Source: a virus. From it: a DNA stretch of 42,264 bases. A program made the translations under genes and the position numbers. The DNA is taken from IMG/VR virus record IMGVR_UViG_3300035698_013847, positions 1 to 42,264 of that record, one strand, 5' to 3'. The number at the start of each line of letters is the position of its first letter. Positions within the stretch are counted from its first letter, which is position 1. Of the stretch, positions 3,643 through 36,810 are shown one piece after another. Below the pieces are notes generated by a model. It worked only from the letters and a program-made list of their open reading frames with translations. It did not search any database and was not told the DNA's origin.

Positions 3643-4320
3643 CTACATCCTTTCCAAAATCCTCTTTATCGTTCTCTGATACCATCCCCGCTTACCCCTT
3701 GCTGACTCTCTCATCTCCTTGTTCATGAACATGACTATTTGATGATAGCTCATCCCTCGACTCTGAAGAGAGAACACCATATCCATCGCAGGCTTCTCAG
3801 CTTCGCAAGGAATGAGCTTCCTGTCATCCGACGGGTCGAGCATGAAGCCGTACGGAGCAAATCGGCTCATCTTCCGACCATTGATCTGATGGTGACGCAT
3901 TGCAGCGCTTGTCCTCATGGCTATGCACTTCCGCTCGTACTCAGCAAAGACGTTGAGCATCTGTCTGACCATGACCTGCTCGGGGCCGTTGCCCTCAACG
4001 TCGCCCTCTACCGCTACTATCTCGCAGTGTTGGGTCTCTACGGCACGTCGGAAGTACTCCGAGAGGTAGACGTTGCGGGCCAGTCTGTCGAGCTTGTAGA
4101 CCAACAGGACGCCTCCAGGCTGGAGTGAGCTGATTGCAGCCCAGAGTATAGGCCGGTCCTCTTTGCTCCCGCTCACGGCTCTGTCATCGAAGACCTTCTC
4201 GACTCTCATGCCGTGAACTTTGGCGTACTTCAGGCACAGTGCATATTGAGTCTCGCAGCTCTCTGATTCGTCAGAGTTTCGGCGCGGGCTGAATCTCGTG
4301 TAAACGATAGCTGGAATCAT
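3643..4320 (-). CDS. serine recombinase (resolvase/invertase family)
   Basis: A 225-residue site-specific recombinase of the serine family. The N-terminal catalytic motif is IVYTRFSPRR with the nucleophile Ser11 and Arg9; KLDRLARN (about residues 76-83) and the YERKCIAMRTSAAM region of the long dimer helix follow. The C-terminal 60 residues hold a short helical DNA-binding region (MSYHQIVMFMNKE, then a basic stretch). Length fits resolvases or invertases better than large phage integrases. It is the last gene of the minus operon and overlaps its upstream neighbour by ATGA. It could carry out genome resolution, inversion or integration; no crossover site was identified. Confidence 0.8.
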   Translation of the reverse strand: MIPAIVYTRFSPRRNSDESESCETQYALCLKYAKVHGMRVEKVFDDRAVSGSKEDRPILWAAISSLQPGGVLLVYKLDRLARNVYLSEYFRRAVETQHCEIVAVEGDVEGNGPEQVMVRQMLNVFAEYERKCIAMRTSAAMRHHQINGRKMSRFAPYGFMLDPSDDRKLIPCEAEKPAMDMVFSLQSRGMSYHQIVMFMNKEMRESARGKRGWYQRTIKRILERM

Positions 4321-4902: not shown

Positions 4903-4915
4903 ATCCCTACTCCTT
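4899..4915 (-). repeat. duplicated start-region cassette, copy 2
   Basis: Second copy of AAGGAGTAGGGATATGA on the minus strand, spanning the ribosome binding site and start of the 4723-4902 gene and the end of the methyltransferase gene. Confidence 0.75.
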
Positions 4916-5909
4916 TGTTGACTTCTTCCCATGCTCTGATGAACGTCGCCGCGACTTCGGGAGTGATCGCATTGCCAGCACCCCGTAATAACCCCACTCT
5001 ACCGGGTAGCCCATGAGCCAGAGGGAAAAGTTCGGGTTCAATCGCAACCCGTCGGGACTTCCCGTCTTTGCAGTCGAGCCATCTTGACGCGGCCCAGAAA
5101 TCGCGTTCACCGCCCCAGTGGTTAGGCTCTCTTGCGATCCCCGTTTCCCCCTGGTCCTGTTCTGGTATCCTTGCCTGACTTCCGACGCTACTACCGTCGG
5201 CCAGCCCGCCATGTGTGCCGCCTCGCTTAGTGCTGGGCCCCCGGCCCCTCGAGCCGCTCTGGTCTCCTTCGACTCGGCTCCCCTGTTCCCGTCTCCCGCT
5301 CTCGGTCCCGGCCAGCCCGCCGCCAATGGCACGGTCTCGCTCAAGCCCATCATTCCTTTGCGCGGCGATACGGCGCCTCTCTTGATTGCGTCCGTCGCCG
5401 TTGTAGTCGGCCACCCAGAATGTGCGTTGCCTGATTTGCGGCGAACCGACGCCCGCAGAGCACAGATCGGCTCCCCCGACTTCATATCCCAATGCTTCCA
5501 AGTCAGAGCGTACTCCGGAGAACCACGACCGGCCAGCAGGGCTAACAACCTGCTCGCCAAACACTGTTGCAGGCTGGCGCCTCTGTCTCGCAATGAGCCA
5601 TCGAAAAGCGGGCCAAAGGTGTTTGTCTTCGTCCTCAACGCCTTTACCCTTTCCGGCGATACTGAATGACTGGCACGGACACGAACCGGTCCACACCGGC
5701 CTATCTTCGGGCCAATCAGCAAGCCGCAATGCGTATGCCCAGCCGCCAATGCCTGCGAAAAAGTGGCATTGGGTGAATTGCTCCAATCGCTCTGGGTCGA
5801 TCTCCCTGATGTCGCGCTCATCCACTTCCCCCTTGGGCAGGAGCCCAGCTCCGATTAACTCTCGGAGCCAAGCACAGGCCTCTTTGTTGTTGTCGTTGTA
5901 GTAGTTCAT
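4899..5909 (-). CDS. C5-cytosine DNA methyltransferase
   Basis: A 336-residue enzyme with the ordered motifs of C5-cytosine methyltransferases: motif I FFAGIGG (residues 50-56, SAM binding), motif IV TGSCPCQSF with catalytic Cys79, motif VI FGEQV in place of the usual ENV, motif VIII IRQRTFWVAD, and C-terminal RGAGNAITPEVAATFI (motifs IX-X). The region between VIII and IX, where target recognition lies, is Gly/Arg-rich. It probably methylates phage DNA against restriction. Start set at the ATG at 5909, coupled by ATGA to the upstream gene with GGAGAG ahead of it; an in-frame start at 5939 lacks this. A 304-codon frame overlaps almost the whole gene. Confidence 0.85.
   Translation of the reverse strand: MNYYNDNNKEACAWLRELIGAGLLPKGEVDERDIREIDPERLEQFTQCHFFAGIGGWAYALRLADWPEDRPVWTGSCPCQSFSIAGKGKGVEDEDKHLWPAFRWLIARQRRQPATVFGEQVVSPAGRSWFSGVRSDLEALGYEVGGADLCSAGVGSPQIRQRTFWVADYNGDGRNQERRRIAAQRNDGLERDRAIGGGLAGTESGRREQGSRVEGDQSGSRGRGPSTKRGGTHGGLADGSSVGSQARIPEQDQGETGIAREPNHWGGERDFWAASRWLDCKDGKSRRVAIEPELFPLAHGLPGRVGLLRGAGNAITPEVAATFIRAWEEVNKGVGI
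4907..5821 (-). other. long alternative frame inside the methyltransferase gene
   Basis: A 304-codon ATG frame on the same strand overlaps the methyltransferase almost end to end. It is not random-looking: YALTWKHWDMKSGEPICALR, GWPTTTATDA and NPNFSLWLMGYPVEWG match a protein family often annotated next to phage cytosine methyltransferases. The last motif is the alternative reading of the methyltransferase segment PLAHGLPGRVG. It could be a real second product or a shadow kept open by base composition and repetitive coding. No ribosome binding site stands out before 5821. Confidence 0.3.
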
Positions 5910-9023: not shown

Positions 9024-9641
9024 ATGAGTAAGACCCGCAAAGAGCACAGAGACAAGCTCGAGCAGATGGGCGCCTGGGATGAGTTCGTCGAGTACCGCTC
9101 TTCGCTCATAATGGGCAAGATGAACTCTATTGACGCGAATTTCGAGGCTGTGAAAAAGTATCTGGGCGCTGAAGCTGCGGAGACCGCCGGCGAGAGTGGT
9201 AATCGGAACAACCGGAACAAGGTCCTTCCCGGAGTGAGTGTGGAAGAGTTTGAGAACGCTTCTCCTATCCCGGCGAACACAAATCCTGACTTCATTGGAA
9301 GTATCCCGCCCCCGCCGTTACCTGTGAAAGCGACTGCGTTTAAGAATAAGAAGGTTGCCGGCGAGATCGAGAATATTACCTGGGTAGCAGACAACATGAG
9401 GATGGTTGGCGTGAGTCCTCGCAGCTGCCCGAGTAAACGCGCGTGGAATCTGCTGTGCGAGTGCCGCGAGAACGCTTTCTTCCGTACGTTATTCTGGAAG
9501 ACCCATTACGAGAAGACCATCCCCGCGAAAGCGACACTCACCGATAAGGGCGATCGGAAAGATATTGACGGGACCCCGACCTTGGGTTTAATTTCGAAGC
9601 TGCAGGCCATGAAAGAGAAATCGGAGGAATTGCCGAGATGA
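9024..9641 (+). CDS. putative small terminase subunit
   Basis: A 205-residue protein at the usual TerS position, upstream of the large terminase in the same orientation. The N-terminal half starts with a charged helix (KTRKEHRDKLEQMGAWDEF); a Pro-rich linker (SIPPPPLPV) separates it from a C-terminal region (ITWVADNMRMVGVSPRSCPS, then ECRENAFFRTLFWKTHYEK) that resembles a phage terminase/DNA-binding region. TerS recognises the packaging site and regulates TerL. No classical helix-turn-helix is obvious, so the call rests on context plus this C-terminal pattern. Confidence 0.5.
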   Translation: MSKTRKEHRDKLEQMGAWDEFVEYRSSLIMGKMNSIDANFEAVKKYLGAEAAETAGESGNRNNRNKVLPGVSVEEFENASPIPANTNPDFIGSIPPPPLPVKATAFKNKKVAGEIENITWVADNMRMVGVSPRSCPSKRAWNLLCECRENAFFRTLFWKTHYEKTIPAKATLTDKGDRKDIDGTPTLGLISKLQAMKEKSEELPR

Positions 9642-9829
9642 TCAAATGTAAACTGAGTACGAAGAAAAGCATATTCGGCGGATACATCGCGACTCTGACG
9701 GCCATTATTCCGCGCGGGAGTTGCGTCCTTCATCAGTCATTTTCCTGCGCAGTTTATCCTCGACAGCAGGATTCAGAAGATCAAGCTCGAGCCATGGCCA
9801 AAAGACTCGTTTGGGAGCTTATCGCATGA
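9638..9829 (+). CDS. small hypothetical protein, 63 aa
   Basis: The ATG overlaps the previous stop (ATGA) and the stop overlaps the next ATG, so the frame fits the tight coupling of this region. The product is basic, with several Cys and a central beta-like stretch (GGYIATLTAIIPRGSCVL) and a C-terminal helix. No recognisable family. A GGAGG lies eight to nine bases upstream. Confidence 0.5.
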   Translation: MIKCKLSTKKSIFGGYIATLTAIIPRGSCVLHQSFSCAVYPRQQDSEDQARAMAKRLVWELIA

Positions 9830-10317
9830 AGTGGGGCTGGCTAACTGACTGGCTGAAGAGTCTGCTTCCGAAATGGATGAGGCCGGAGCAGAAAGAGCCT
9901 AAGCGGACCTTGCCTGAGAATGCCGTCCCTTGGTCACGAATAAAATGTTTCGGCAGTGCGGACCCTTCGACGTGGGCAGAGACACAGCCGTTACATAAAG
10001 TCTATGATACCGGCAGGCTGGTTGTTTACGATACGCCGGCGCATGAAGTGTTCCCTACCCTTGAGGGTGTGAGTGCTTCGGCCTGGGCAGGTCAGCTTCA
10101 ACCGGACGGTTTCTACTATTGTCATCCGCACGAGTACATGAGATCCGGTAACGACAAGCGAGGTATTCCGTGGCAGGAAATGTATGACGGCAACCCTGGC
10201 TGGCCGACTTACGATCGCAGAAAAGATACGGTCCATTTTGTGAGTGGTTTGGCGCGGGATTCGCGTAGGAATATTGAAGAGAGAACAAATAATGTACTTC
10301 GAAGGGGATCAGGCTGA
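9826..10317 (+). CDS. hypothetical protein, 163 aa
   Basis: Start set at the ATG at 9826, overlapping the upstream TGA. The N-terminus (MKWGWLTDWLKSLLPKWM) is an amphipathic, Trp-rich helix that could associate with a membrane or protein surface. The rest is aromatic- and proline-rich, without known domains (ADPSTWAETQPLHKVYDTGR; FYYCHPHEYMRSGN). The stop shares bases with the next gene's start. Location between the TerS candidate and TerL suggests morphogenesis or an inserted accessory function. Confidence 0.55.
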   Translation: MKWGWLTDWLKSLLPKWMRPEQKEPKRTLPENAVPWSRIKCFGSADPSTWAETQPLHKVYDTGRLVVYDTPAHEVFPTLEGVSASAWAGQLQPDGFYYCHPHEYMRSGNDKRGIPWQEMYDGNPGWPTYDRRKDTVHFVSGLARDSRRNIEERTNNVLRRGSG

Positions 10318-10694
10318 TGGCTTTTGAATTGCTTCTTCATGATGGAAAAGATCTGAGCGAAACGGACGGCGAGCCGCTGAAAGTGTTCCGCATGGATGAG
10401 GCCGACATCAACGGCGCTCACCACGAGTACACTATCACTGACGACTCTCAGAAGCAGTTGTTCTGCGGACTTCAGTTTCAGAATGGCGCCATACCTGAAG
10501 TAGGGGTTAATGGCTGTCACAATGAGAGCTTGATCGAGATCGTTATCGACAGGCTTGAGTCTTTTGAGAAAGGTCCTTTCCCTTGCGATGAAAATCACAT
10601 GGCGATCGCTTGTCTTCAGCAGGCTCTTGGATGCCTGAAGGCTCGCACACTGGATCGCATGTCGCGCGGGGTCGAGGGTAAGAGCGAGGCATAA
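10317..10694 (+). CDS. Tad1/Acb2-like protein (anti-defence candidate)
   Basis: A 125-residue protein whose C-terminal 60 residues match the helical-hairpin pattern I associate with the Acb2/Tad1 family: LQFQNGAIPEVGVNG, NESLIEIVIDRLESFEKGPF, a CDEN motif, then QQALGCLKARTLDR and RGVEG. The N-terminal part (KVFRMDEADINGAHHEYTI) also fits the longer Tad1-type members. Tad1 and Acb2 sequester cyclic nucleotide signals of the Thoeris and CBASS defences. Many family members are uncharacterised, so binding here is inference. It is coupled to TerL (stop/start share one base). Confidence 0.6.
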   Translation: MAFELLLHDGKDLSETDGEPLKVFRMDEADINGAHHEYTITDDSQKQLFCGLQFQNGAIPEVGVNGCHNESLIEIVIDRLESFEKGPFPCDENHMAIACLQQALGCLKARTLDRMSRGVEGKSEA

Positions 10695-12613
10695 TGGTAG
10701 CTGAAGTTCTATCTGTGGGGCAGATAAGCTGTCCGCATTATGATCTTGTGCCTAAAGATTTCTATGCGAACCTGCGCTATCGTGCGATGCTCATTGAAGA
10801 GGCTGGCAGTGACGAGCTCGCTGCGGCTCAGATAAAGACGCTCTGCTCTGAAGACATCCTGTTTTACGTCAACGCACTCTGCTGGACGTACGATTCTAAG
10901 ACTCATCCGAAAGCGCCGATCAGACCTTTCATCACGTATCCGTTTCAGGATGACACGATCATGAATATTGCCGACTGTATTGTCAGTGGCGAGGACTTCG
11001 TCGTTCCGAAGTCAAGGCAGATGGGCGCCTCCTGGATGGGGATCACGACGTACGAGTGGTTCTGGCACTTCCGAGGCAACCTCAGCCTGATGTTTATCTC
11101 TCGTAACGAGGATTACGTCGACAAGAAGGGCGATAGTAAAGCGCTGTTCTGGAAAATCGATTTCCTTCATCAGAATCAACCGAACTGGCTGCTCCCTACA
11201 GGTCGCTGGTTAGGCTGGAAAGATCCAGGCCGCAAGTCACTGCAGATCGTTAACAACGATAACGACAGTATCATCATCGGAGAATCCACAACTGGCGATG
11301 CTGGCCGTGGCGCGAACTTGACTGCGATGTTCATCGACGAACACGCGGCATTTGATATCAGTAACGGCTTCGAGGTCCTGTCGGCCACTCGGGACGCGAC
11401 GAACTGCCGGGGCTTCAATTCGACTCCGAAGGGCGCCAATAACGGATTCTACAACGCCTGTCACGAGATTGTAGCTCGTAACTTGAGGCTTCACTGGTCA
11501 CAGCATCCGGAGAAGTGCGAGGGCCTGTATAAGACCGACGGCGAGAAAGTAGAGTTGCTCGATCGCTTCCGCGGGCTGGTCAGAGTCCAGAATAAAGGCG
11601 AGAAGAGATCGCGCCAGGTCATGTTCCCCGATGACTATCCGTTTAATTTTTCTCAACGATTTCCCTTGCGCTCTCCATGGTTTGACATCCAATGTAATCG
11701 TTGTGCTTCGAATACCGAGATCGCGCAAGAGCTCGAGATCGACTTCCTCGGAGCTGACTATCAGTTCTTTGACGCTGAGTTCATAGAGATTTTGCGTAAG
11801 AAGTATTGCCGGGAGCATATGTATCTTGGCAATCTGGAATTTGACAATGACAGCTGCAGACCGAAACGATATGTAGACAACCGCGACCGTGGCCTGCTTT
11901 ACCTCTGGCTGGCGCTCGACGGCGAGATGCGCGTCCCGAAAGATCGAAAGTTCATTATAGGCTCGGACATTTCGGCGGGGACAGGCGCAAGTAATTCTGT
12001 GTCCTGTGTGGTGGACAGGGAAACGGGCGAAAAGGTGGGGTGTTTTCGGACGCCCCACCTCCGTCCTACTCCTTTTGCTGACTACACGATCGCCATGGCG
12101 AGGTTTTTCAATAACGCCTACATGATCTGGGACGCCTCTGGTCCGACCGGGACCACCTTCACTCAGCAAGTGATTCGAAAGAATTACAGCTACATCTATT
12201 ACCGGAAGCGAGAGAAGAAGATCGGTCGGGATGAGACTGACGAGCCGGGTTATTACCTTACGCCCAGAGCTCGAGAAAACCTTCTCGAGGACTATAGGGC
12301 AGCTCTCGCGGACCACCGTTACATCAATCGCTCGAATAATGGCATGAAAGAATGCTTGCAATTTATTCGAAAAGCTGATGGAAGTATAGAGCACAGCAAG
12401 GCTGTTAACGCTCAGGACCCGTCAGGAGCAAAGACAGCTCATGGTGATGAAGTCATTGCCGACGCTCTTTGTTCGCATTGTGTGATAGAAGGAGAATCGA
12501 TTCCTGAACCGACAGAGCCCGAAGTTCCATACGGCTCTCTCGCCTGGAGGATGAAGCAGAAAGCAGATGCGATAGCGGCAAAGAAAGTTGATAAGCTCGA
12601 CAGTACTTGGTAG
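10694..12613 (+). CDS. terminase large subunit
   Basis: A 639-residue DNA-packaging motor. The ATPase has a deviant Walker A SRQMGAS (residues 107-113) and Walker B MFIDEHA (Asp215, Glu216). The C-terminal RNase H-like nuclease begins at IIGSDISAGTG with Asp425 and continues through YMIWDASGPTG and a final HGDEVIADALC segment. It cuts concatemers and translocates DNA through the portal. An RNSTPKG-like coupling motif is present (FNSTPKGANNG). The ATG shares a base with the previous TAA. Confidence 0.9.
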   Translation: MVAEVLSVGQISCPHYDLVPKDFYANLRYRAMLIEEAGSDELAAAQIKTLCSEDILFYVNALCWTYDSKTHPKAPIRPFITYPFQDDTIMNIADCIVSGEDFVVPKSRQMGASWMGITTYEWFWHFRGNLSLMFISRNEDYVDKKGDSKALFWKIDFLHQNQPNWLLPTGRWLGWKDPGRKSLQIVNNDNDSIIIGESTTGDAGRGANLTAMFIDEHAAFDISNGFEVLSATRDATNCRGFNSTPKGANNGFYNACHEIVARNLRLHWSQHPEKCEGLYKTDGEKVELLDRFRGLVRVQNKGEKRSRQVMFPDDYPFNFSQRFPLRSPWFDIQCNRCASNTEIAQELEIDFLGADYQFFDAEFIEILRKKYCREHMYLGNLEFDNDSCRPKRYVDNRDRGLLYLWLALDGEMRVPKDRKFIIGSDISAGTGASNSVSCVVDRETGEKVGCFRTPHLRPTPFADYTIAMARFFNNAYMIWDASGPTGTTFTQQVIRKNYSYIYYRKREKKIGRDETDEPGYYLTPRARENLLEDYRAALADHRYINRSNNGMKECLQFIRKADGSIEHSKAVNAQDPSGAKTAHGDEVIADALCSHCVIEGESIPEPTEPEVPYGSLAWRMKQKADAIAAKKVDKLDSTW

Positions 12614-14224: not shown

Positions 14225-14605
14225 ATGATTCAGGCGACGATTGCAAAGGTAGCGGCGACGGGTAGTTTGTTGAGTGGTGGATCGATCGTTGTTGCTCAGG
14301 CTGTTCCTACGATCGTTCCTGCCGGGTTTCAAGCGTGGCCTGCTACGGCGATGCTCGCGTTTATCGCTCTGGTCTGTCTGTCGATCGTTGTCATCATGGT
14401 TAAGATGATATTTAAGACTATGGCCGCGGCTTCTGAAGCACAAAAGGAAGCGGCTGTAGCTCAGATGAAACTGGCCACTGAGCTTGGCGAAACAAACACT
14501 CGCATGAATGAAATGTCGCAGAAGCAAGGCGTCACCAATGAGAAAATGGGTGAACTCGTTGCTGTCATCAGAGCGAAACCTTGCATAGGGGATGAAGACG
14601 TATGA
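14225..14605 (+). CDS. membrane protein with cytoplasmic coiled coil (holin candidate)
   Basis: 126 residues. A moderately hydrophobic N-terminal segment (residues 10-35) and a clear transmembrane helix AMLAFIALVCLSIVVIMVKM (42-61) are followed by a charged helical tail (residues 65-115) suited to a coiled coil. Size and topology are compatible with a holin, but no lysin is nearby, and small membrane proteins also occur among virion genes. The stop overlaps the portal start. Confidence 0.45.
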   Translation: MIQATIAKVAATGSLLSGGSIVVAQAVPTIVPAGFQAWPATAMLAFIALVCLSIVVIMVKMIFKTMAAASEAQKEAAVAQMKLATELGETNTRMNEMSQKQGVTNEKMGELVAVIRAKPCIGDEDV

Positions 14606-16332
14606 GTGATTTAGGCGTAAATTTCGCTCAGCTTCGAGATGCTGTTAACTGGTCCGTAAGGCAGCTTGAAATTCCGAGAACGAACAGAGTTCTTTCCGTG
14701 AAGCAGTATGTTGGATCTCATTACGCTGCTCAGGGGTCTCAGAAGCGAGTCCCTACCAATTTCCTCGAGCTTGCTGTGACAATCTATACCAGACAGCTCG
14801 CCGCTCAGTCTCCGCGGGCTAAGGTCGCTACTGGATCTCCTTCGCTCAAGCCTCTTGCGAAGAGTATGGAAATTGCTCTGAATCAGATTCCGGATGAGAT
14901 CGGTCTTGGCGCTACTCTTCGCCGCGCTGTGATGGAGGCCCTATTCTCTCTTGGAGTCGTAAAGGTTGGTATTAGCTCAACAGGCGTACAGGTCCTGGGG
15001 TATGATGTTGGTGAGCCGTTTGTCGACATAGTGAATCTCGACGATTACTTCTGCGATATGAGCGCGGACAGTTGGAAGAATCTGCAGTACGAAGGAAATG
15101 ACTACTGGCTTCCGATCGATGCAGCTCGAGCGATGTATGGTAACCAGGTACAGCCGGATGACTTTACGATTACAGGCGATAACGGAGAGATTCGTTCTGA
15201 AGAGATCAGCAAGGAAGATGGCGCCGACTTATATAAAGATAAGGTTTGGCTCCGGGACGTGTGGCTGACTCGAGAGAATAAGCTTCTGACATATGGCGTG
15301 AAAGGTAACGATATCTACAATATCATCCCTTGGGATGGTCCGGAGCATAGCCCCTACCACGTCCTCGGTTTCGCTGATGTTCCTGGTAACCTTTTGCCTC
15401 TCCCTCCTGTCGCTCTTTGGACTGACCTTCATGAGCTTGCTAATATCCTGTTCCGGAAGCTCGGCCGTCAGGCTGACGCGAAGAAGACAGTTGCGGCTTT
15501 CAGTGGTGGCAATGACGACGATATTAAGGCTCTGCGGACAGCTCTTGACGGAGACGGTATCGGATATCACGGCAAGAAGCCTGAGTCTCTTACTGTCGGC
15601 GGTATAGATGCTCCGACGCTCGCTTTGTTCTTACAGACAAAAGACCTTTTTAGCTATCTCGCAGGAAACCTGGACAGTCTCGGCGGACTGGCTCCTTCTA
15701 CTGATACAGTCGGCCAGGATAAGCTACTCTCGGAAGCTGCGAACGCCAGGCTCAAGCATATGCGGGATCAGACTGTCAGTTTCGCCAGAGGTATCTTCAA
15801 GTCTCTCGCATGGTATGAGTGGACTGATCCTGTCCGGGAACGGACGGTAGAGAAGACGGTAAAGAGTGCCGGCGTCTCTGTCCGGCGCGTATGGTCTCAG
15901 GAGACCAGAGAGGGCGACTTCCTCGACTACAATTTCGATATAGATCCTTACTCGATGCAGGACAACACTCCGGACTCGAAGCTCCAGAAGATCCGAGCGA
16001 TCCTCGAGTCATTCATTATGCCTCTCTTGCCTATGATGGAACAGCAGGGCGGACAGCTCGACATGAAACAATACGTCGAACTGATCGGCGACCTGAGTAA
16101 CGTTCCTGAGTTGCTCGACATGTTTACTTTCCGTGAGCCGATGGAAGGCGAACCGGTTCAAGCTGCAGGTCAGGCGAAACCGACCATGGGCAACAATACT
16201 ACGCGGACCTACGATCGAGTCGTCCGGCCTGGTGCGACTAGGAGCGGGAAAGATCATGTAATGTCTCAGCTACTCATGGGTAGCGGTGTCCAGAGCGGAG
16301 AGGCCGCTACAGCAGGAAGGCCGGTATCGTAA
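14602..16332 (+). CDS. portal protein
   Basis: A 576-residue portal (head-tail connector) candidate placed between TerL and the capsid genes. Features fit short-tailed-phage portals: a helical N-terminal region with RVPTNFLELAVTIYTRQLAA, a central beta-rich wing with DYFCDMSADSW, the segment HVLGFADVPGNLLPLPPVAL, the long crown helices, and a C-terminal FREPMEGEP tail. Portals form the dodecameric vertex ring through which DNA passes. The ATG overlaps the upstream stop. Confidence rests on size, position and the overall pattern. Confidence 0.8.
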   Translation: MSDLGVNFAQLRDAVNWSVRQLEIPRTNRVLSVKQYVGSHYAAQGSQKRVPTNFLELAVTIYTRQLAAQSPRAKVATGSPSLKPLAKSMEIALNQIPDEIGLGATLRRAVMEALFSLGVVKVGISSTGVQVLGYDVGEPFVDIVNLDDYFCDMSADSWKNLQYEGNDYWLPIDAARAMYGNQVQPDDFTITGDNGEIRSEEISKEDGADLYKDKVWLRDVWLTRENKLLTYGVKGNDIYNIIPWDGPEHSPYHVLGFADVPGNLLPLPPVALWTDLHELANILFRKLGRQADAKKTVAAFSGGNDDDIKALRTALDGDGIGYHGKKPESLTVGGIDAPTLALFLQTKDLFSYLAGNLDSLGGLAPSTDTVGQDKLLSEAANARLKHMRDQTVSFARGIFKSLAWYEWTDPVRERTVEKTVKSAGVSVRRVWSQETREGDFLDYNFDIDPYSMQDNTPDSKLQKIRAILESFIMPLLPMMEQQGGQLDMKQYVELIGDLSNVPELLDMFTFREPMEGEPVQAAGQAKPTMGNNTTRTYDRVVRPGATRSGKDHVMSQLLMGSGVQSGEAATAGRPVS

Positions 16333-28762: not shown

Positions 28763-30052
28763 ATGGCCATAGAAGTCAAAAGCGGGGGAGCGGTCGGAGC
28801 TACGGCTCTGGCTGGATTCGTAGGTGGCCAAGGTCGGCGACAGGTTGACGATGCAAAATTGGCCTTAAATGCTATCAATACTGGTCTCGGCAGGCAGGCC
28901 GTCAGCGCGAGAGCGTTCCATGGTAGAGTAGCTGCTGCCGGACGGCAGAAGACTGCAATTGAAGCGAGAGCTGATGAGGCAGATCAAGAGTTTACCAGAG
29001 CTTTCGACGTTCGCGAGGATCAGGCTCGTATCAGGGAAGAAGGTCGCGTAGCTGATGCCGGTCGCAGGCGTGAAGAGCTCGGAGTCAGGGACGATCTCAG
29101 GACAACCCGCGAGGCTGGCCAGCAGTCTGTCGCGGAAGAAACTCGAATATCTGACCAGAAGCGGAAAAGAGATGACCTCGAGTTCTCCCTCTCTGCGAAA
29201 CAGCGTTCTGAGTTCAATAATCTCTCTGACAGTTATGACGAAGCTGTGGCTTCTGGCGAGTATAGCGATGATGAGCTTTCTGAGATCAGGCAGAAGATCC
29301 GCGCGAAACAGCTCGGAATCAAGCCTCAGCCAAGACTAAAGTCGTCCAGCAAGTATCCTGAAGGGAAACAGCCTGGAGACGTATTCACGGAAGAGACACT
29401 CGGCGGAGCAGGAGCTCTCTTTACTCGTGATGACAAGGGTAACGTGAAGAAGCTTCTGGATAATAAGCCAAGAGAGATAGTTAAGCCTCTTGATGTTGGT
29501 GGTCTGCAACAGCAGGCTGTAGCTCTTTTCACCAATGAAGAGGGAGTTACTAACTGGAAAAAGGTCGACGACTATGTCGATCGAGCAGTGAAACGTCATG
29601 CTACTATTTCCGGTACAGGCGAAGAGCTTGCCGCTGGCGTTGTTCCTCCTCCGGCCGTGGTGGAAGAGCCGGTCCTGGATGAAGCGCAAAAGGCGTTAAT
29701 GCTCCGTAGTGGTCTTGATCCGAATAACCCTAAACAGGTGGCTGCGTTCCGGAGTGTTACCAACAAAGAGGCGACCGACCGTACTGGTCAGGGAGAGTCA
29801 GAGGAATCTCTTCAGCCTAGCGGCATGGTGCTCGTTAAGCAAAAGAACGGCGCCTATACAATGGTCGCACAGAATGAGGCGGACCTCCTGATTCAAAAGG
29901 GCGGCGAGCAGATTCCGTTCAAGACTGAAACGAAAATCGATAAGCCTGCTCAGACTGTCACGGCAACTCAGGACGAAGAAGCTATAGAGTGGGCTCGGAA
30001 CAATCCTGGTGACAAGGCGAACGAAATCCTCAGAATGAACGGAGTTGAATAG
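28763..30052 (+). CDS. internal virion-type coiled-coil protein, 429 aa
   Basis: The N-terminus is Gly/Ala-rich (KSGGAVGATALAGFVGGQGR), followed by a long, highly charged helical region (residues 60-150; AIEARADEADQEFTRAFDVR, then QARIREEGRVADAGRRREEL). The rest is mixed and ends EWARNNPGDKANEILRMNG. Such proteins commonly precede large ejected proteins in short-tailed phages and may form part of the internal core. The stop shares a base with the GTG of the giant gene. Confidence 0.5.
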   Translation: MAIEVKSGGAVGATALAGFVGGQGRRQVDDAKLALNAINTGLGRQAVSARAFHGRVAAAGRQKTAIEARADEADQEFTRAFDVREDQARIREEGRVADAGRRREELGVRDDLRTTREAGQQSVAEETRISDQKRKRDDLEFSLSAKQRSEFNNLSDSYDEAVASGEYSDDELSEIRQKIRAKQLGIKPQPRLKSSSKYPEGKQPGDVFTEETLGGAGALFTRDDKGNVKKLLDNKPREIVKPLDVGGLQQQAVALFTNEEGVTNWKKVDDYVDRAVKRHATISGTGEELAAGVVPPPAVVEEPVLDEAQKALMLRSGLDPNNPKQVAAFRSVTNKEATDRTGQGESEESLQPSGMVLVKQKNGAYTMVAQNEADLLIQKGGEQIPFKTETKIDKPAQTVTATQDEEAIEWARNNPGDKANEILRMNGVE

Positions 30053-33000
30053 TGGCCTTTGATCCGGATGCCTACCTGAAGACTAAGCAGGAAGAACCTG
30101 TAAAGCCTGAGACTGCGGCATTCGATCCAGATAAGTATCTCGAAGAGAAGAAGGTCTCATCGTTTGATCTGCCGAAAGAGGGTTTCGATCCTGTAGCTGA
30201 GGATCTTGGCAAGCTCGCCAGTGAGGCCTCTGTGTCTACGGCAGACACTAATCTCCCTAAAGCCAGACAGGAGTCAGTCGTCGGTGAGAAGAGTCAGGCA
30301 GTCATTCCTGCTGACGGGGTTATTGACCATGCTATAGCTGGTCTCGGAAAGGCTGGAACGCAGTTTGTCATGTCAGCATCATCGGCGCTGAAGATCCTTT
30401 CTCGGCAGGGGAACAAAACTGCCGACGCTATGATCTCTATGCCATGGCGAATCTTTAAATCTGTAGCTCCGAAGACTTTTGAACGATACCAGAATTCTAT
30501 TGCATCTGGTGAAGACACTCAGGAGCTCAGGGCCGCGACTGGGTTCAATAACTTTCTGCAAGATGTAGGGACTAAATCTTACGACCACTATTCTGCTCAG
30601 ATGGAGGATTTAGAGAAAGCGTTTCCTTCTGGCGACATTACCGAGAATCCGGAACTGCTCAAAGATCCGAAATGGTGGGCTCAGAGTACGGCTCAGGCCG
30701 CGGGGAGCATGAGTATGGCTGTCGCGTTCGGCGGGAGTGCTCGGGGCGCTTCACTTGTTGGCGCGAGTATGGAAGCTCTGCCAACGTACGAGAGATTGAA
30801 AGAAGAGGGAGATCCGGAGGCGGCTACAAAGACAATGGCCTTCTTTGCGGCTGTGGCATCATTAGAGAAAATTGGATTTGGACGGATATTCAAAGGGGCT
30901 CCAAAGGGGGCACTGAACAAAGTCGTAGCCGCGACTCTTGCTGGTTTCGCTGAAGCAGGCTCAGAATGGGCGGAAGAACCGGCTGAAGCTCTAATCACGA
31001 ATCTCGGCAAAGAAGGTGTAACTCCGACAGAGTACGGCCGCAGAGTTCTCGCAGCGATGAAGCAGGGCGTCAACGTTATTCCGGCGTCATTCCTTCTCGG
31101 AGGAGGCATTACCGCGGCGTCTCCGACTGGAACAGCCGACGTCGAGGCCGCAGTAGTCAAGGCCCCTGTTCCAGCTCCATCTGATTTAGAGACCTTTGCC
31201 CAAGAGAATCCAGAGGCCGCGGCTACTCTCGGAAAAATAGAGACACCGAGCCGGAAAGATTTCAAGGAAGCCGGCCTTCCTAAGGCTTCAAAGGCCGAAA
31301 GAGCCCGTATATCAGGAGATTTGCGCGAAATAGTAGGGGATAGCGTTCAAGACACGCCAGAGGCCGCTGAAGCGACCGAAGTACCGGAGGGTACGAAGGC
31401 AAGCGAGGGCGCTGTGAAACCTGAAATAGAGCCGTCTGAGTCCACACTGAAGGACCAGGCGGCGAAAGCGCAACCGGTGACACCAGCAGTGCCGGTAGAG
31501 GAAACTACGACGGCGACTCAGGTCCCGGCGCCTGAAGAGTCGTCCGTTGCTGGCCAGCAGGTCGAGGCTCAGCCCTCAGAGGCCCAGAAAGAGGCGGAAA
31601 ACTACAAAAAGGGTCATGCGAAGATTGACGGCCATGACATTACAATCGAGAACCCTGTCGGCGCTGAGCGATCCGGCGTCGATGATGACGGTAAGGCCTG
31701 GAAACAGACTATGAAGTCAGACTACGGGTACATCAAGGGGACCGTAGGCTTCGATAAGGACCATTTGGACGTATTTGTGAAGCCTGACTACGAGGGTGGG
31801 AATAAATCTGTATTTGTAGTGAATCAAGTCAATCCTGAGACCGGTGCGTTCGATGAGCATAAAGTTGTCATGGGCGCGTCGACCATAGCCGAAGCCACCG
31901 AGATCTATAACTCGAATTACGAGGAAGGCTGGAAGGGCGGCAAGAGCGTAGTCGAGATGACCGCTGAAGAGTTCAAGGGCTGGATCAAGGACGATAAGAA
32001 TGGTCCTACGAAGGGTGAGCTGAAGGCTTTCCAGACAGTCTCGAAGGAATTGACAGAGTCTGAAAACTCTCCATTCACCTCTGAAGCCGCAGCGCTTCGG
32101 ATTCAAGGTAATGTCCTGAGGCGAAGGCAAGCGGCTGCAAAAGCCGCGGGGAGCGTGACTGAAGCTGAAGTCATGGGTCTCGAACTCGATATCATAGAGA
32201 AGCAGCGTATAGAAGCCGAACGCCGTCAAGCAGAGTCGGAAACAACTGTTCCTGCCGCAAAGGAGAAAATCGGACGGAAGGGCGTAACTAAGAAGAGGGC
32301 GGTAAGGGACAAAGGGGACACTCAGCCTTCTGTGGTTGCACCCGGAATTACGGCAGAACAGGCAGGCCCGAAAAGAGTAAATGCTGACGGATCTAAAAAT
32401 GATGTGTGGGTCATAAAGGATCAGGGGAAGTGGATTGGTGATATAACTTTCAGAGTAGACACAGACGGTACAGCGACTATAGGTCAGATAACGATGGCTG
32501 GTGGCAAGCAAAGTATAGGATTGCCGAACGTTAGAAAAGTTCAAAAGGCCATTGAAGTTGAATATCCAGAGGTCAAGGCTTGGACTGGCTACAGAACCGG
32601 CGGAGCGCAGGCTAAGGCTAGGGAGTCGAAAAAGATTGGCCGTAAGGGCGTGACGAAAGAGGCTGAGGCAAAGAAAGTCGATAAGGTTGTTTCTGTCACT
32701 CCTAAAGGAATTGATCAACTACTCACTGACGATCACAATAAGCTGAGACCTAATGATCAGCGTGAACCAGGGACTTTCGGAAAGTGGGCTGAGCAATTCA
32801 GTGAAGCGTTAAAGAATAAAGATGCCCCATGGTTCAGAAGAGCCTTGATGCACGGAAAAGGGTTCAACGATTCTTCGAAGAGAGTATTTTTCGGATTGCT
32901 AAACAAACGGGTTCCTCAGAACATTGCTGGAATTGAGGAGGCTATAGATGAGTGGGCAGGAATATCTACTCAGGAGAGAACTACTCGACATGCTGAAGCT

Positions 33001-36000
33001 GTACAGAAGTCTGAAGACAGGAAAGCTCAGCGAAAAGCCGAAGCACAGGAGAAAGTCAAGACCGATCGGGCTGACAAGGCACTGAATCAGAAGGTGAGAT
33101 TTGATGGGAAGGTTATGACCCAGAAAGAACTCATAGACCAGCAGATTAAGGCCGGTCAGTCAGTTGTCGAACATGCCAAGGGAGCGAAGAATCCGTTTCG
33201 TTTAATAAACCCGATCACAAATGTTTTTACTCCGCTCAGGGGTCAGGCCGCTTTTGATTATGCTAAAGAGCAGGTAGATAAAGCCCAGGCCACCCCTTTA
33301 ACTGAAGCCGCAACAATCGAGCCAGCAATCGAAACAGTCGACGTCGAAGAGACTACGCCTGTCGCTCCGCCTGAGATCCAGGATTTCCCAGGGCGACCTA
33401 CAGGGGACCGTAACACCTTCCCCGCGCTCTCGCAGAGGACCGTAAAAGACTCCGGACTCGTACAGTCAGCGGATATCCTCGCACGCATGAAGCGGCTCTG
33501 GCCGAAAGTTGCTGTAAGAGAGAAAGGACTTTTCAAGAGGAAAGCTCGAGGTTGGTACAATACCGTTCTCGGAGAAATACGATTAAGTGACGCCAGAGAC
33601 ATCGATGTCATGCTCCACGAGCTCGGTCATCATCTCGATAAGCAGTTGGACACCTGGTCCGGACGCGGGGATCTCCCGGCCGGGATACCTACTGAGCTGA
33701 TAGCGATCGGGCGCGAACTCTACGGAGACAAGCGACCTGTCGGAGGCTACAGGGGTGAAGGCTTTGCGGAGTTCATTAAGGGCTACCTCGTTGGAGAAGA
33801 TCTTAATAAGGTGGCGCCAAAGACCTACGAATGGTTTTCGACTGAATACCTGCAGGAGAACCGAGGCGAGGCTAAGAAGCTCAGAGAGATGGAGGACCTT
33901 CTTTCGAGGCTCCGTTTGCAGGCTCCCGCCAGAGTTACCAGGGCTTTCTGGAGGCCTCTCAAAAGGGATTACTCAGCTCAGCGTGCAGCCAGTAGGCTCG
34001 CGGCTCTTGAGGCAGAGCATAGGGATAGGAATCTGCCTTTCCTCCGCATGATGCAGAAGTCAGGCGCAGATCTGTCAGAGATAAAGCCTTCGGACCATAC
34101 GTACATGCTGGCCACGTTCTTTTCTAGGAGTTCCGGAGGCAGAGCGATCGACGGAGTCATGAATCAGACCAGTGACCTTTTCGCGAACCCTACGGGGGAG
34201 GGCCTCCGGAGCGCTCTTGCTCCTGTTGCCGAGCTCGGGAAAGAGAACGTAAGGAAATGGGTCGACTACGCTGTAGCGAGGCAGGCTCAGGTTTATCATG
34301 ATAAGGGGCTCAAGTCTGGTCTCTCGCAGCAAGTCGCTGATGCCACTGTCAAAGAGCTAGAGAATGAAGTCTTCAGTACAACCCTCGATCGCGTAACTCG
34401 CTGGAGGAGACGCAACCTGCAGCTACTCGTAGACTCCGGAATCATCTCTCCAGAGGAGTTCGATCGTATTGAGGATGAGAATCCTATCGCTATCCCATTT
34501 TCGCGTCAATTCATGGCAGATGAGCTCAGCTCAAAAGCGAAGATAGGCGGTAAGAAACCGTTACATCGTAGACGTGGTGGTACTCAGGAGATCCATAATC
34601 CGATTGATGCCATGATCCTCGAGTCAGAACGATTTATGAAGGCGGCTATGGAGGCCTCTGTTCTCAGGTCGTGGGTGAAGTTCTTCGATTCACAGAAGGG
34701 GAAGGCAGCGAATCTCGGACTACTAATGAGCGAAGAGCCTGGCCCGCAGAAGCGCGTCGACTTCAAGGCCGATCGGATTAAGAAGGATATCACTGAGCTG
34801 GCGAAAGAGCTCGGGACTGACCAGGAAGCGATAGATCTCGCCTCTCAGGAAATCTGGGACAAGAAGCTCTCTGTCTACATCCCGGCCCAGGACTATAGCG
34901 GTAGAGAGAACATCGTATCAATCCGCGTAGACGGTAAGCGCAGGTGGTTTAATGTGGCTCCTGAGCTCGTTGACATCCTCCAGGGCATCAATAAGGACCG
35001 CATACTTCCAGGTAAGCTCGGAGAGATGAGTCGCCGGCTTATCGGACTACAGCGTTTGGGCGCCACTGGGCTCAATCCTACGTTCGGGCTCCTGAGAAAT
35101 CCGATCAAGGACACGTTCATGGCCGCGGTGACTGCAGAGTTCCATTTCCATGTACCGTTATTGTCTACTCTTGTTGGGAGCATCAAGGACATCATTAATA
35201 CGGATGCAGCGCAGGCCTACCATGCCGCAGGCTTGGATCTTGCCGGACGAATAGGGCAGGACATAAGGCTCGCCAGTAAAGCCGGCCGCAGGGCTACCGC
35301 CAGATCGAAGCCTGGAGCGATACTTGCTGGAGGAGTAATATCTTCACTCCGGGAGGTCTTGTCTCATTCTGAAGTAGGTCCGCGTCTTATGGAGTTTGAG
35401 GGAGGCCGAAAATTCGGGCTCAATAAGTGGGGCAACAAAGACGAAGCTACGATCCTCGGCGGAGTAGCGGCGAAGGACCTCACAGTCAATTTCACTCGTG
35501 CGGGATCTGTAGGGGCCGGGATAAATGAAGTCATTCTGTTCTGGAACGCAGGCATTCAGGGAATAGACAAGGCCGCAAGAGCCTTAGGTATCCTTGAGTC
35601 GGCCCCATGGTCGAGGATACAGGCGAAAGATGGCTCTGTGTCGTCCCAAGCAAAGGCCAGAGCAAAGACTCTCACCCGATCGCTGACCAAAGGTATCGGA
35701 TGGATGACTATCACGGCTCTGATGAATTATTACAGAAACAGAGATGATGACTGGTGGAAAGAGTTGCCTGCATACGAGAAGTGGAACTACCTCCATATCA
35801 AAACGCCTTTCGGGATAATGAGGATACCGCTTCCCTTCGATATCGGGCCGCTCTTTGGTTCTCTGCCTGTAGCAGCGCTCGAGGAAGCCCGGAATCCAGG
35901 AGCCTTTAATGAAGCGCTTCTCCAAGCCGCAAACAACCTGTCGCCGATCGACTTCTCCGGAGGCAACCTGTCCGAGGTATTCCATAGCCTATCCAGGAAT

Positions 36001-36810
36001 GTATCGATGATATCGCCTCTTTCAGATGTTGCGGCAAATCGCGACTGGAAAGGCTCTTATGTCGTGAATCCGAATGTTGAGAAGTACAGAGATCGAGAAG
36101 ATCAGTTCGGACCTCGCACGTCCGGGCTCGCGAAGCTGATAGGGAGTCATTCTCCATACAAGATGTCTCCTTCCAGGATAGATCATCTCCTGAATGGCTT
36201 TACTGGCGGACTCTACGCCAGGACAGCGAGCTTGATCGATTTAGCGATCGATCCGTCAGGAATCACTGCAGATGATCCTTCGACCTTCCCTCTCCTTGGT
36301 AATCTCTTCTTGAGGCATGGCGCCTCAAGGTTAGCGACAGACTTCTACGATCGTCAGGCAGATCTTCGCCAGAAGAAGGGGTCAGGCAAAGCGAGTCTCG
36401 AAGAAATCGGTGAGCTTACCTCTATCGATAAGATGTCTCGCGAGCTCTCAAAGAAATGGGACGCGAGACGTGATGCCTTTACGGGACTGAAGAAAGGCGA
36501 GTCAAAGCCGATTGTGGAGAAGATTGTTACGGATATCGAAGATGATATCAGGGAGCATAATACGCGCTCTGACTTCAGGCATACCGGAGTCGGCAGTGTG
36601 GTCTACGCGGCAACGTCTCCGAAGGCCGAAGATGCTCACAAGGATCTTGCTAAAAAACTACTGGCCGGCGAGCCTAAGGCGTCCATTCGTAAGGGGCTGC
36701 GCGATGCGTCGAAAGCTCGCGGCGGAAAGAACTTTAAGATCCGACATTCGAACGGAAATCTCACCGCCTATGGCGAGCGGCTGGCCAGGCTCGGGCTGTT
36801 AGGGCTGTAA
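30052..36810 (+). CDS. giant polyvalent ejection protein (2252 aa)
   Basis: GTG start, coupled to the upstream stop. Residues 1-340 hold Asp-Pro repeats (FDPDAYL, FDPDKYL) and Gly/Ala-rich hydrophobic helices that could cross membranes. About 515-648 is the pyrophosphatase-like polyvalent domain (KKGHAKIDGHDITIENP; GTVGFDKDHLDVFV; EHKVVMG). A segment near 740-865 is bracketed by two KIGRKGVTK copies. About 1150-1260 is a metallopeptidase-like domain with LHELGHHLD (His1189, Glu1190, His1193). Residues about 1650-1960 resemble an LPD38-type domain (WWKELPAYEKWNYLHI). It is probably packaged and injected with DNA to act in the new host. Domain names are from memory. Confidence 0.7.
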   Translation: MAFDPDAYLKTKQEEPVKPETAAFDPDKYLEEKKVSSFDLPKEGFDPVAEDLGKLASEASVSTADTNLPKARQESVVGEKSQAVIPADGVIDHAIAGLGKAGTQFVMSASSALKILSRQGNKTADAMISMPWRIFKSVAPKTFERYQNSIASGEDTQELRAATGFNNFLQDVGTKSYDHYSAQMEDLEKAFPSGDITENPELLKDPKWWAQSTAQAAGSMSMAVAFGGSARGASLVGASMEALPTYERLKEEGDPEAATKTMAFFAAVASLEKIGFGRIFKGAPKGALNKVVAATLAGFAEAGSEWAEEPAEALITNLGKEGVTPTEYGRRVLAAMKQGVNVIPASFLLGGGITAASPTGTADVEAAVVKAPVPAPSDLETFAQENPEAAATLGKIETPSRKDFKEAGLPKASKAERARISGDLREIVGDSVQDTPEAAEATEVPEGTKASEGAVKPEIEPSESTLKDQAAKAQPVTPAVPVEETTTATQVPAPEESSVAGQQVEAQPSEAQKEAENYKKGHAKIDGHDITIENPVGAERSGVDDDGKAWKQTMKSDYGYIKGTVGFDKDHLDVFVKPDYEGGNKSVFVVNQVNPETGAFDEHKVVMGASTIAEATEIYNSNYEEGWKGGKSVVEMTAEEFKGWIKDDKNGPTKGELKAFQTVSKELTESENSPFTSEAAALRIQGNVLRRRQAAAKAAGSVTEAEVMGLELDIIEKQRIEAERRQAESETTVPAAKEKIGRKGVTKKRAVRDKGDTQPSVVAPGITAEQAGPKRVNADGSKNDVWVIKDQGKWIGDITFRVDTDGTATIGQITMAGGKQSIGLPNVRKVQKAIEVEYPEVKAWTGYRTGGAQAKARESKKIGRKGVTKEAEAKKVDKVVSVTPKGIDQLLTDDHNKLRPNDQREPGTFGKWAEQFSEALKNKDAPWFRRALMHGKGFNDSSKRVFFGLLNKRVPQNIAGIEEAIDEWAGISTQERTTRHAEAVQKSEDRKAQRKAEAQEKVKTDRADKALNQKVRFDGKVMTQKELIDQQIKAGQSVVEHAKGAKNPFRLINPITNVFTPLRGQAAFDYAKEQVDKAQATPLTEAATIEPAIETVDVEETTPVAPPEIQDFPGRPTGDRNTFPALSQRTVKDSGLVQSADILARMKRLWPKVAVREKGLFKRKARGWYNTVLGEIRLSDARDIDVMLHELGHHLDKQLDTWSGRGDLPAGIPTELIAIGRELYGDKRPVGGYRGEGFAEFIKGYLVGEDLNKVAPKTYEWFSTEYLQENRGEAKKLREMEDLLSRLRLQAPARVTRAFWRPLKRDYSAQRAASRLAALEAEHRDRNLPFLRMMQKSGADLSEIKPSDHTYMLATFFSRSSGGRAIDGVMNQTSDLFANPTGEGLRSALAPVAELGKENVRKWVDYAVARQAQVYHDKGLKSGLSQQVADATVKELENEVFSTTLDRVTRWRRRNLQLLVDSGIISPEEFDRIEDENPIAIPFSRQFMADELSSKAKIGGKKPLHRRRGGTQEIHNPIDAMILESERFMKAAMEASVLRSWVKFFDSQKGKAANLGLLMSEEPGPQKRVDFKADRIKKDITELAKELGTDQEAIDLASQEIWDKKLSVYIPAQDYSGRENIVSIRVDGKRRWFNVAPELVDILQGINKDRILPGKLGEMSRRLIGLQRLGATGLNPTFGLLRNPIKDTFMAAVTAEFHFHVPLLSTLVGSIKDIINTDAAQAYHAAGLDLAGRIGQDIRLASKAGRRATARSKPGAILAGGVISSLREVLSHSEVGPRLMEFEGGRKFGLNKWGNKDEATILGGVAAKDLTVNFTRAGSVGAGINEVILFWNAGIQGIDKAARALGILESAPWSRIQAKDGSVSSQAKARAKTLTRSLTKGIGWMTITALMNYYRNRDDDWWKELPAYEKWNYLHIKTPFGIMRIPLPFDIGPLFGSLPVAALEEARNPGAFNEALLQAANNLSPIDFSGGNLSEVFHSLSRNVSMISPLSDVAANRDWKGSYVVNPNVEKYRDREDQFGPRTSGLAKLIGSHSPYKMSPSRIDHLLNGFTGGLYARTASLIDLAIDPSGITADDPSTFPLLGNLFLRHGASRLATDFYDRQADLRQKKGSGKASLEEIGELTSIDKMSRELSKKWDARRDAFTGLKKGESKPIVEKIVTDIEDDIREHNTRSDFRHTGVGSVVYAATSPKAEDAHKDLAKKLLAGEPKASIRKGLRDASKARGGKNFKIRHSNGNLTAYGERLARLGLLGL

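Follow-up and report, generated by a model that had tools for sequence, protein, structure and literature searches.

A Tad1 homologue encoded among the DNA-packaging genes of a tailed phage

The terminase locus and the tad1-like gene

We analyzed a 42,264-nt stretch of viral DNA (the window; IMG/VR record IMGVR_UViG_3300035698_013847) and characterized a 125-aa reading frame that adjoins the gene for the large terminase (TerL). The locus comprises the following features.

9024..9641, + strand: probable small terminase (TerS), 205 aa; in about 40 related contigs its family adjoins TerL on the upstream side
9826..10317, + strand: orphan gene, 163 aa, between TerS and tad1; its stop overlaps the tad1 start (TGATG)
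10317..10694, + strand: tad1-like gene, 125 aa; residues 22-42 are predicted as strands and 68-116 as a helical hairpin, the N-terminal part is variable and the RGVEG tail conserved
10563..10676, + strand: codons 83-120 of the tad1-like gene, holding F83, N93, R110, R114 and the tail to E120, as placed by alignment
10694..12613, + strand: TerL, 639 aa; matches phrog_2 (E 3.4e-14) and phrog_5989 (E 1.6e-11)
14602..16332, + strand: probable portal protein, assigned by position; it belongs to the same run of plus-strand genes, further downstream

The first-pass annotation had placed the tad1-like gene exactly, from its ATG at 10317, and all four of the motifs that it quoted (VGVNG, IEIVIDRLESF, RTLDR and RGVEG) are present in the product. 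The GC content by codon position is coding-like (0.61/0.35/0.59), and a ribosome-binding-like stretch with GGGG lies 9 nt upstream of the start. The reading frame is a real gene rather than a chance one, because its product matches phrog_2428 (hmmscan) and Tad1 chains of the PDB (phmmer). An opposite-strand reading frame (10209-10598) had no support and was taken to be a shadow of the coding strand.

The gene shares a single base with each of its neighbors, its ATG with the stop of the upstream gene and its TAA stop with the predicted TerL ATG at 10694 (TAATG). The second of these overlaps is likely rather than certain, since TerL could begin either at this ATG or at a GTG about 21 nt downstream; the region of TerL that is shared with its relatives starts at CPHYDLVPKDF. 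Thus, where the gene had been described as fused by overlap to TerL, the one-base overlap of stop and start codons is likely to stand, while the two proteins are not fused.

The position of TerS was assigned by synteny. The portal-position gene has no PHROG match and has relatives in 75 viral contigs of IMG/VR, most of which carry the same TerL family, mostly just upstream of it. In about 40 of the 75, a homologue of the 9024-9641 gene is found immediately upstream of TerL, and it is therefore probably TerS. The 9024-9641 product itself has no match in the family libraries, and one member of its family matches a helix-turn-helix DNA-binding PHROG. The 9826-10317 gene was considered as TerS and was ruled out, since by synteny the family that precedes TerL is that of 9024-9641. 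Consequently, the earlier description of the tad1-like gene as lying between TerS and TerL is correct on the TerL side, with TerS probably one gene further upstream than the 9826-10317 gene.

The product of the intervening gene begins MKWGWLTDWLKSLLPKW and has a Trp/Lys-rich N-terminus. No relative of it was found in Pfam, PHROGs, NCBIfam, IMG/VR or phage records, and it could be a second gene with an accessory or anti-defence role. Elsewhere in the window, the minus strand carries an integrase/invertase-like recombinase (3643-4320) and a DNA methyltransferase (4907-5821), which suggest a temperate phage or a mobile element, and the late region holds a single reading frame of 2252 aa (30052-36810).

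Assignment to the Tad1 family

We found that profile and sequence searches converged on Tad1. The strongest match in PHROGs is phrog_2428 (hmmscan, E 1.6e-30, residues 29-124), with weaker matches to phrog_22140 and phrog_23843. Among PDB sequences, phmmer returned CmTad1 (8kbb, E 4.5e-18), a chain named gp184 (8y6v, E 4.5e-14) and CbTad1 chains (7uav and 8kbe, also 8kbg and 8kbh; E 3e-12 to 3.3e-12). The CmTad1 match improved to E 1.9e-37 when the search employed a profile of 12 sequences, built on the tad1-like protein and its IMG/VR relatives. By tblastn, 132 phage records matched, each at <60% identity, the named SBSphiJ7 Tad1 among them.

The standard annotation libraries were less informative. 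Searches with PADLOC, NCBIfam and Pfam assigned no family to the reading frame; the sole Pfam match, YjeJ (E 0.041), was under its cut-off and was treated as noise. An HMM search against the Acb2/Tad1 hairpin model, the check that had been proposed for the family call, left the protein unscored (PF24729, curated cut-off 27 bits, no match at E<=1). The same model matches SBSphiJ7 Tad1 and the Tad1 loci L008 and L013, and it misses the gp184-like Tad1 of phage PA7 and a Vibrio phage homologue (L094). Because those two are also missed, the PF24729 model is insensitive.

We then compared the protein's predicted structure with those in the PDB. The AlphaFold model, calculated from a small alignment, contains two strands and the hairpin, with confidence limited to the helical hairpin (mean pLDDT 59, pTM 0.42). 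Its top 20 Foldseek matches were 20 Tad1 chains, both apo and ligand-bound, which were also the only matches at E<=0.001; the TM scores are about 0.42. CmTad1 is the best match in both the sequence and the fold searches. The structural comparison thus supports Tad1 through every significant match, for a model in which the hairpin alone is confident.

The residues invariant in the family are retained. Across SBSphiJ7 Tad1, CmTad1, CbTad1 and the PA7 gp184-like protein, in an alignment that also took two IMG/VR relatives, 11 columns are invariant, and the tad1-like protein keeps all 11 (Q55, G57, E61, G66, L72, V76, N93, L104, R110, R114 and G121). F83 is kept as well, and F83, N93, R110 and R114 align with the positions of the same numbers in the CbTad1 construct. 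We take these four to be the gcADPR-pocket residues of CbTad1 (F82, N92, R109 and R113 in native numbering), and on that assumption the pocket residues are kept. Together, the sequence matches, the fold search and the retained invariant residues establish the protein as a Tad1 homologue, bearing out the original family call.

Three sites depart from the consensus: D91 (usually R), H94 (usually A) and C106 (usually W), of which the first is the site of the common CRENA arginine and the third that of the hairpin tryptophan. These substitutions may explain the PF24729 miss. They would also suit a hairpin protein that has decayed or been repurposed, one that no longer binds its ligand and works next to TerL in packaging or as a structural part, perhaps as an accessory to the terminase. 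The PF24729 result and the tight coupling of the gene to TerL would fit this reading too. We consider it unlikely. All 11 invariant residues are kept, the PA7 gp184-like protein is likewise altered at sites 91, 94 and 106, and TerL proteins of 58-62% identity occur without tad1 beside them, so the gene is not required for packaging. Based on the comparison with the PA7 protein, and because Tad1 of the phiKZ type is reported to be active, the three changes are probably tolerated. The phiKZ Tad1 is reported to block both CBASS and Thoeris (PMC13282480).

The first-pass annotation had named the Acb2/Tad1 hairpin family as a whole, and the comparison supports the Tad1 half of that name rather than the Acb2 half. 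Acb2 and T4 Vs.4 have the sponge principle and a helical hairpin at the C-terminus in common with Tad1, but they measure about 88-94 aa and have no N-terminal sheet. An Acb2-family, CBASS-only sponge could be argued from PF24729, which names the hairpin domain for Acb2 and Tad1 jointly. However, the protein matched phrog_2428 and had no match at E<=1 to phrog_717 (Acb2/Vs.4), which is the Vs.4 family (PMC10097602). It also aligns over nearly its full length with Tad1 chains, including the N-terminal part that is absent from Acb2. An Acb2 assignment is accordingly very improbable, and by sequence the protein is of the Tad1 type, with a putative strand-forming N-terminal part ahead of the hairpin.

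Two known members are close. CmTad1 (8kbb/8kbc/8kbd) is about 41% identical in the aligned part and has the hairpin motifs and the C-terminal tail in common, but carries R and W where the tad1-like protein has D91 and C106, and the N-terminus of the tad1-like protein is divergent. SBSphiJ7 Tad1, the original anti-Thoeris protein, is about 40% identical and has every family-invariant residue in common; its gene, in contrast, is found in a 153 kb Bacillus phage, where the surrounding genes are unannotated and no annotated terminase adjoins.

An insertion beside TerL

TerL relatives of 58-62% identity come from Cerasicoccus frondis, a verrucomicrobial genome, and from two viral contigs. As the C. 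frondis TerL is the nearest in a sequenced bacterium, a host among the Verrucomicrobiota is probable. C. frondis is the sole sequenced bacterium with a close TerL relative, and its genome has no ThsB_TIR or SMODS match. It does carry a 162-aa Tad1 homologue (L182:6365-6853) with about 24 aa inserted between the two hairpin helices, in a stretch apart from its TerL relative (L093).

In most relatives the TerS-TerL gap is shorter than about 250 nt, and it is 95-140 nt in the three with the closest TerLs. Some relatives hold different small genes there, and the gap in L079 reaches 3.2 kb. At L079:2836-6040, L024:1687-3204 and L092:4237-5019, the gap is occupied by unrelated genes that vary in length. 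This phage alone carries tad1 in the gap, which is empty or otherwise filled in about 40 relatives. Therefore, tad1 is not a part of the core packaging module but a moron-like insertion, together with the orphan gene, and the gap resembles a slot for variable cargo. The gene had been called part of core late expression; its late timing remains probable from gene order, while its membership of the packaging core does not hold.

We surveyed 80 IMG/VR Tad1 loci for TerL. In eight records, spanning several unrelated phages, TerL lies <=1 kb from tad1 (L179, L118, L122/L123, L108, L142, L162 and L125). In L013, tad1 is followed by one small gene, by a 571-aa probable TerL 374 bp downstream of tad1, and then by a P22-type portal gene; this probable TerL had no family match, and a P-loop-like motif was seen in it. 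A location of Tad1 beside TerL that is unique to this phage is thereby ruled out. In the 5 kb around the match in L118, L122 and L123, tad1 sits between TerL (phrog_2) and a large downstream reading frame of 735-766 aa (partial in L123), which may encode the portal.

The recurrence in unrelated phages amounts to a modest enrichment. Among 30 records of at least 25 kb with a detected TerL, tad1 was within 4 kb of TerL in 10, compared to 5.1 expected at random placement (P ~0.02), and within 1.5 kb in 4, compared to 2.4 (P 0.21). These P values are uncorrected, were read at three distance cut-offs, and assume linear contigs and count some related ones as independent, so we regard the enrichment as suggestive. 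Named phages place Tad1 in varied contexts: near DNA-repair genes in OLIVR5, near RNA polymerase and RNA ligase in SXP01, and near gp21 and hoc in PspYZU05.

Probable late expression and a proposed function

The late position of an anti-defence gene had been called unexpected for a factor that should act early. This premise is weak. The major head protein of the phage turns on staphylococcal Thoeris and is enough for gcADPR synthesis (PMC11312562), and gp184 of phiKZ, a Tad1-domain protein and inner-body interactor, is packaged and validated as injected (PMC10449902, PMC13282480). Because Thoeris can be triggered by capsid protein and phiKZ injects its Tad1, the apparent paradox of late expression largely disappears, and the occurrence of Tad1 near TerL in unrelated phages weakens it further. 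The late expression of tad1 itself is probable from gene order; a scan for promoters and terminators found nothing decisive on its timing.

We propose that the gene encodes a late-expressed Tad1 sponge for gcADPR and/or cyclic oligonucleotides, and assign this joint reading a probability of about 0.82, with the ligands, oligomer, timing and anti-defence effect being the parts that we infer. According to this proposal, tad1 and the orphan gene would have been inserted into the length-variable TerS-TerL gap, and tad1 and TerL would be translated from one late mRNA, about when a capsid-sensing Thoeris system would fire. The protein would fold into a strand-containing N-terminal part and a C-terminal helical hairpin, and may form dimers and hexamers, as CmTad1 and CbTad1 do; assembly of Tad1 into hexamers has been described (PMC12043709). 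It would then bind gcADPR from Thoeris and/or cyclic di-/trinucleotides from CBASS, and the sequestration of these signals would hold the effectors off during virion production.

Alternatively, the protein could be made late, enter the virion and be injected, and so act as the next infection begins, in the manner of phiKZ gp184. The two share a C-terminal Tad1 domain, as the match to chain 8y6v indicates, and tad1 sits in the packaging module. However, gp184 has 230 aa and an N-terminal extension; the 125-aa protein is without the ~110-aa extension of gp184-type proteins and without a known packaging signal. Injection is thus an improbable mode of action here, and a sponge acting in the cell that produces it is the reading we prefer.

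Tad1 sponge proteins are already known, and the notable feature of this gene is only its place among the DNA-packaging genes, where a sponge gene is coupled to a packaging operon. With this gene, the known range of Tad1 takes in a group of small tailed phages whose hosts are probably Verrucomicrobiota. If late expression holds, it fits a need for sponges when capsid proteins appear, beyond the first minutes of infection. More speculatively, and with considerable doubt on our part, the TerS-TerL gap may be a cargo slot, and the coupling of tad1 to TerL there an adaptation by which the dose and timing of the sponge follow capsid production, the trigger of Thoeris. If so, the linkage of Tad1 to terminase would be a recurrent, selected arrangement in unrelated phages.
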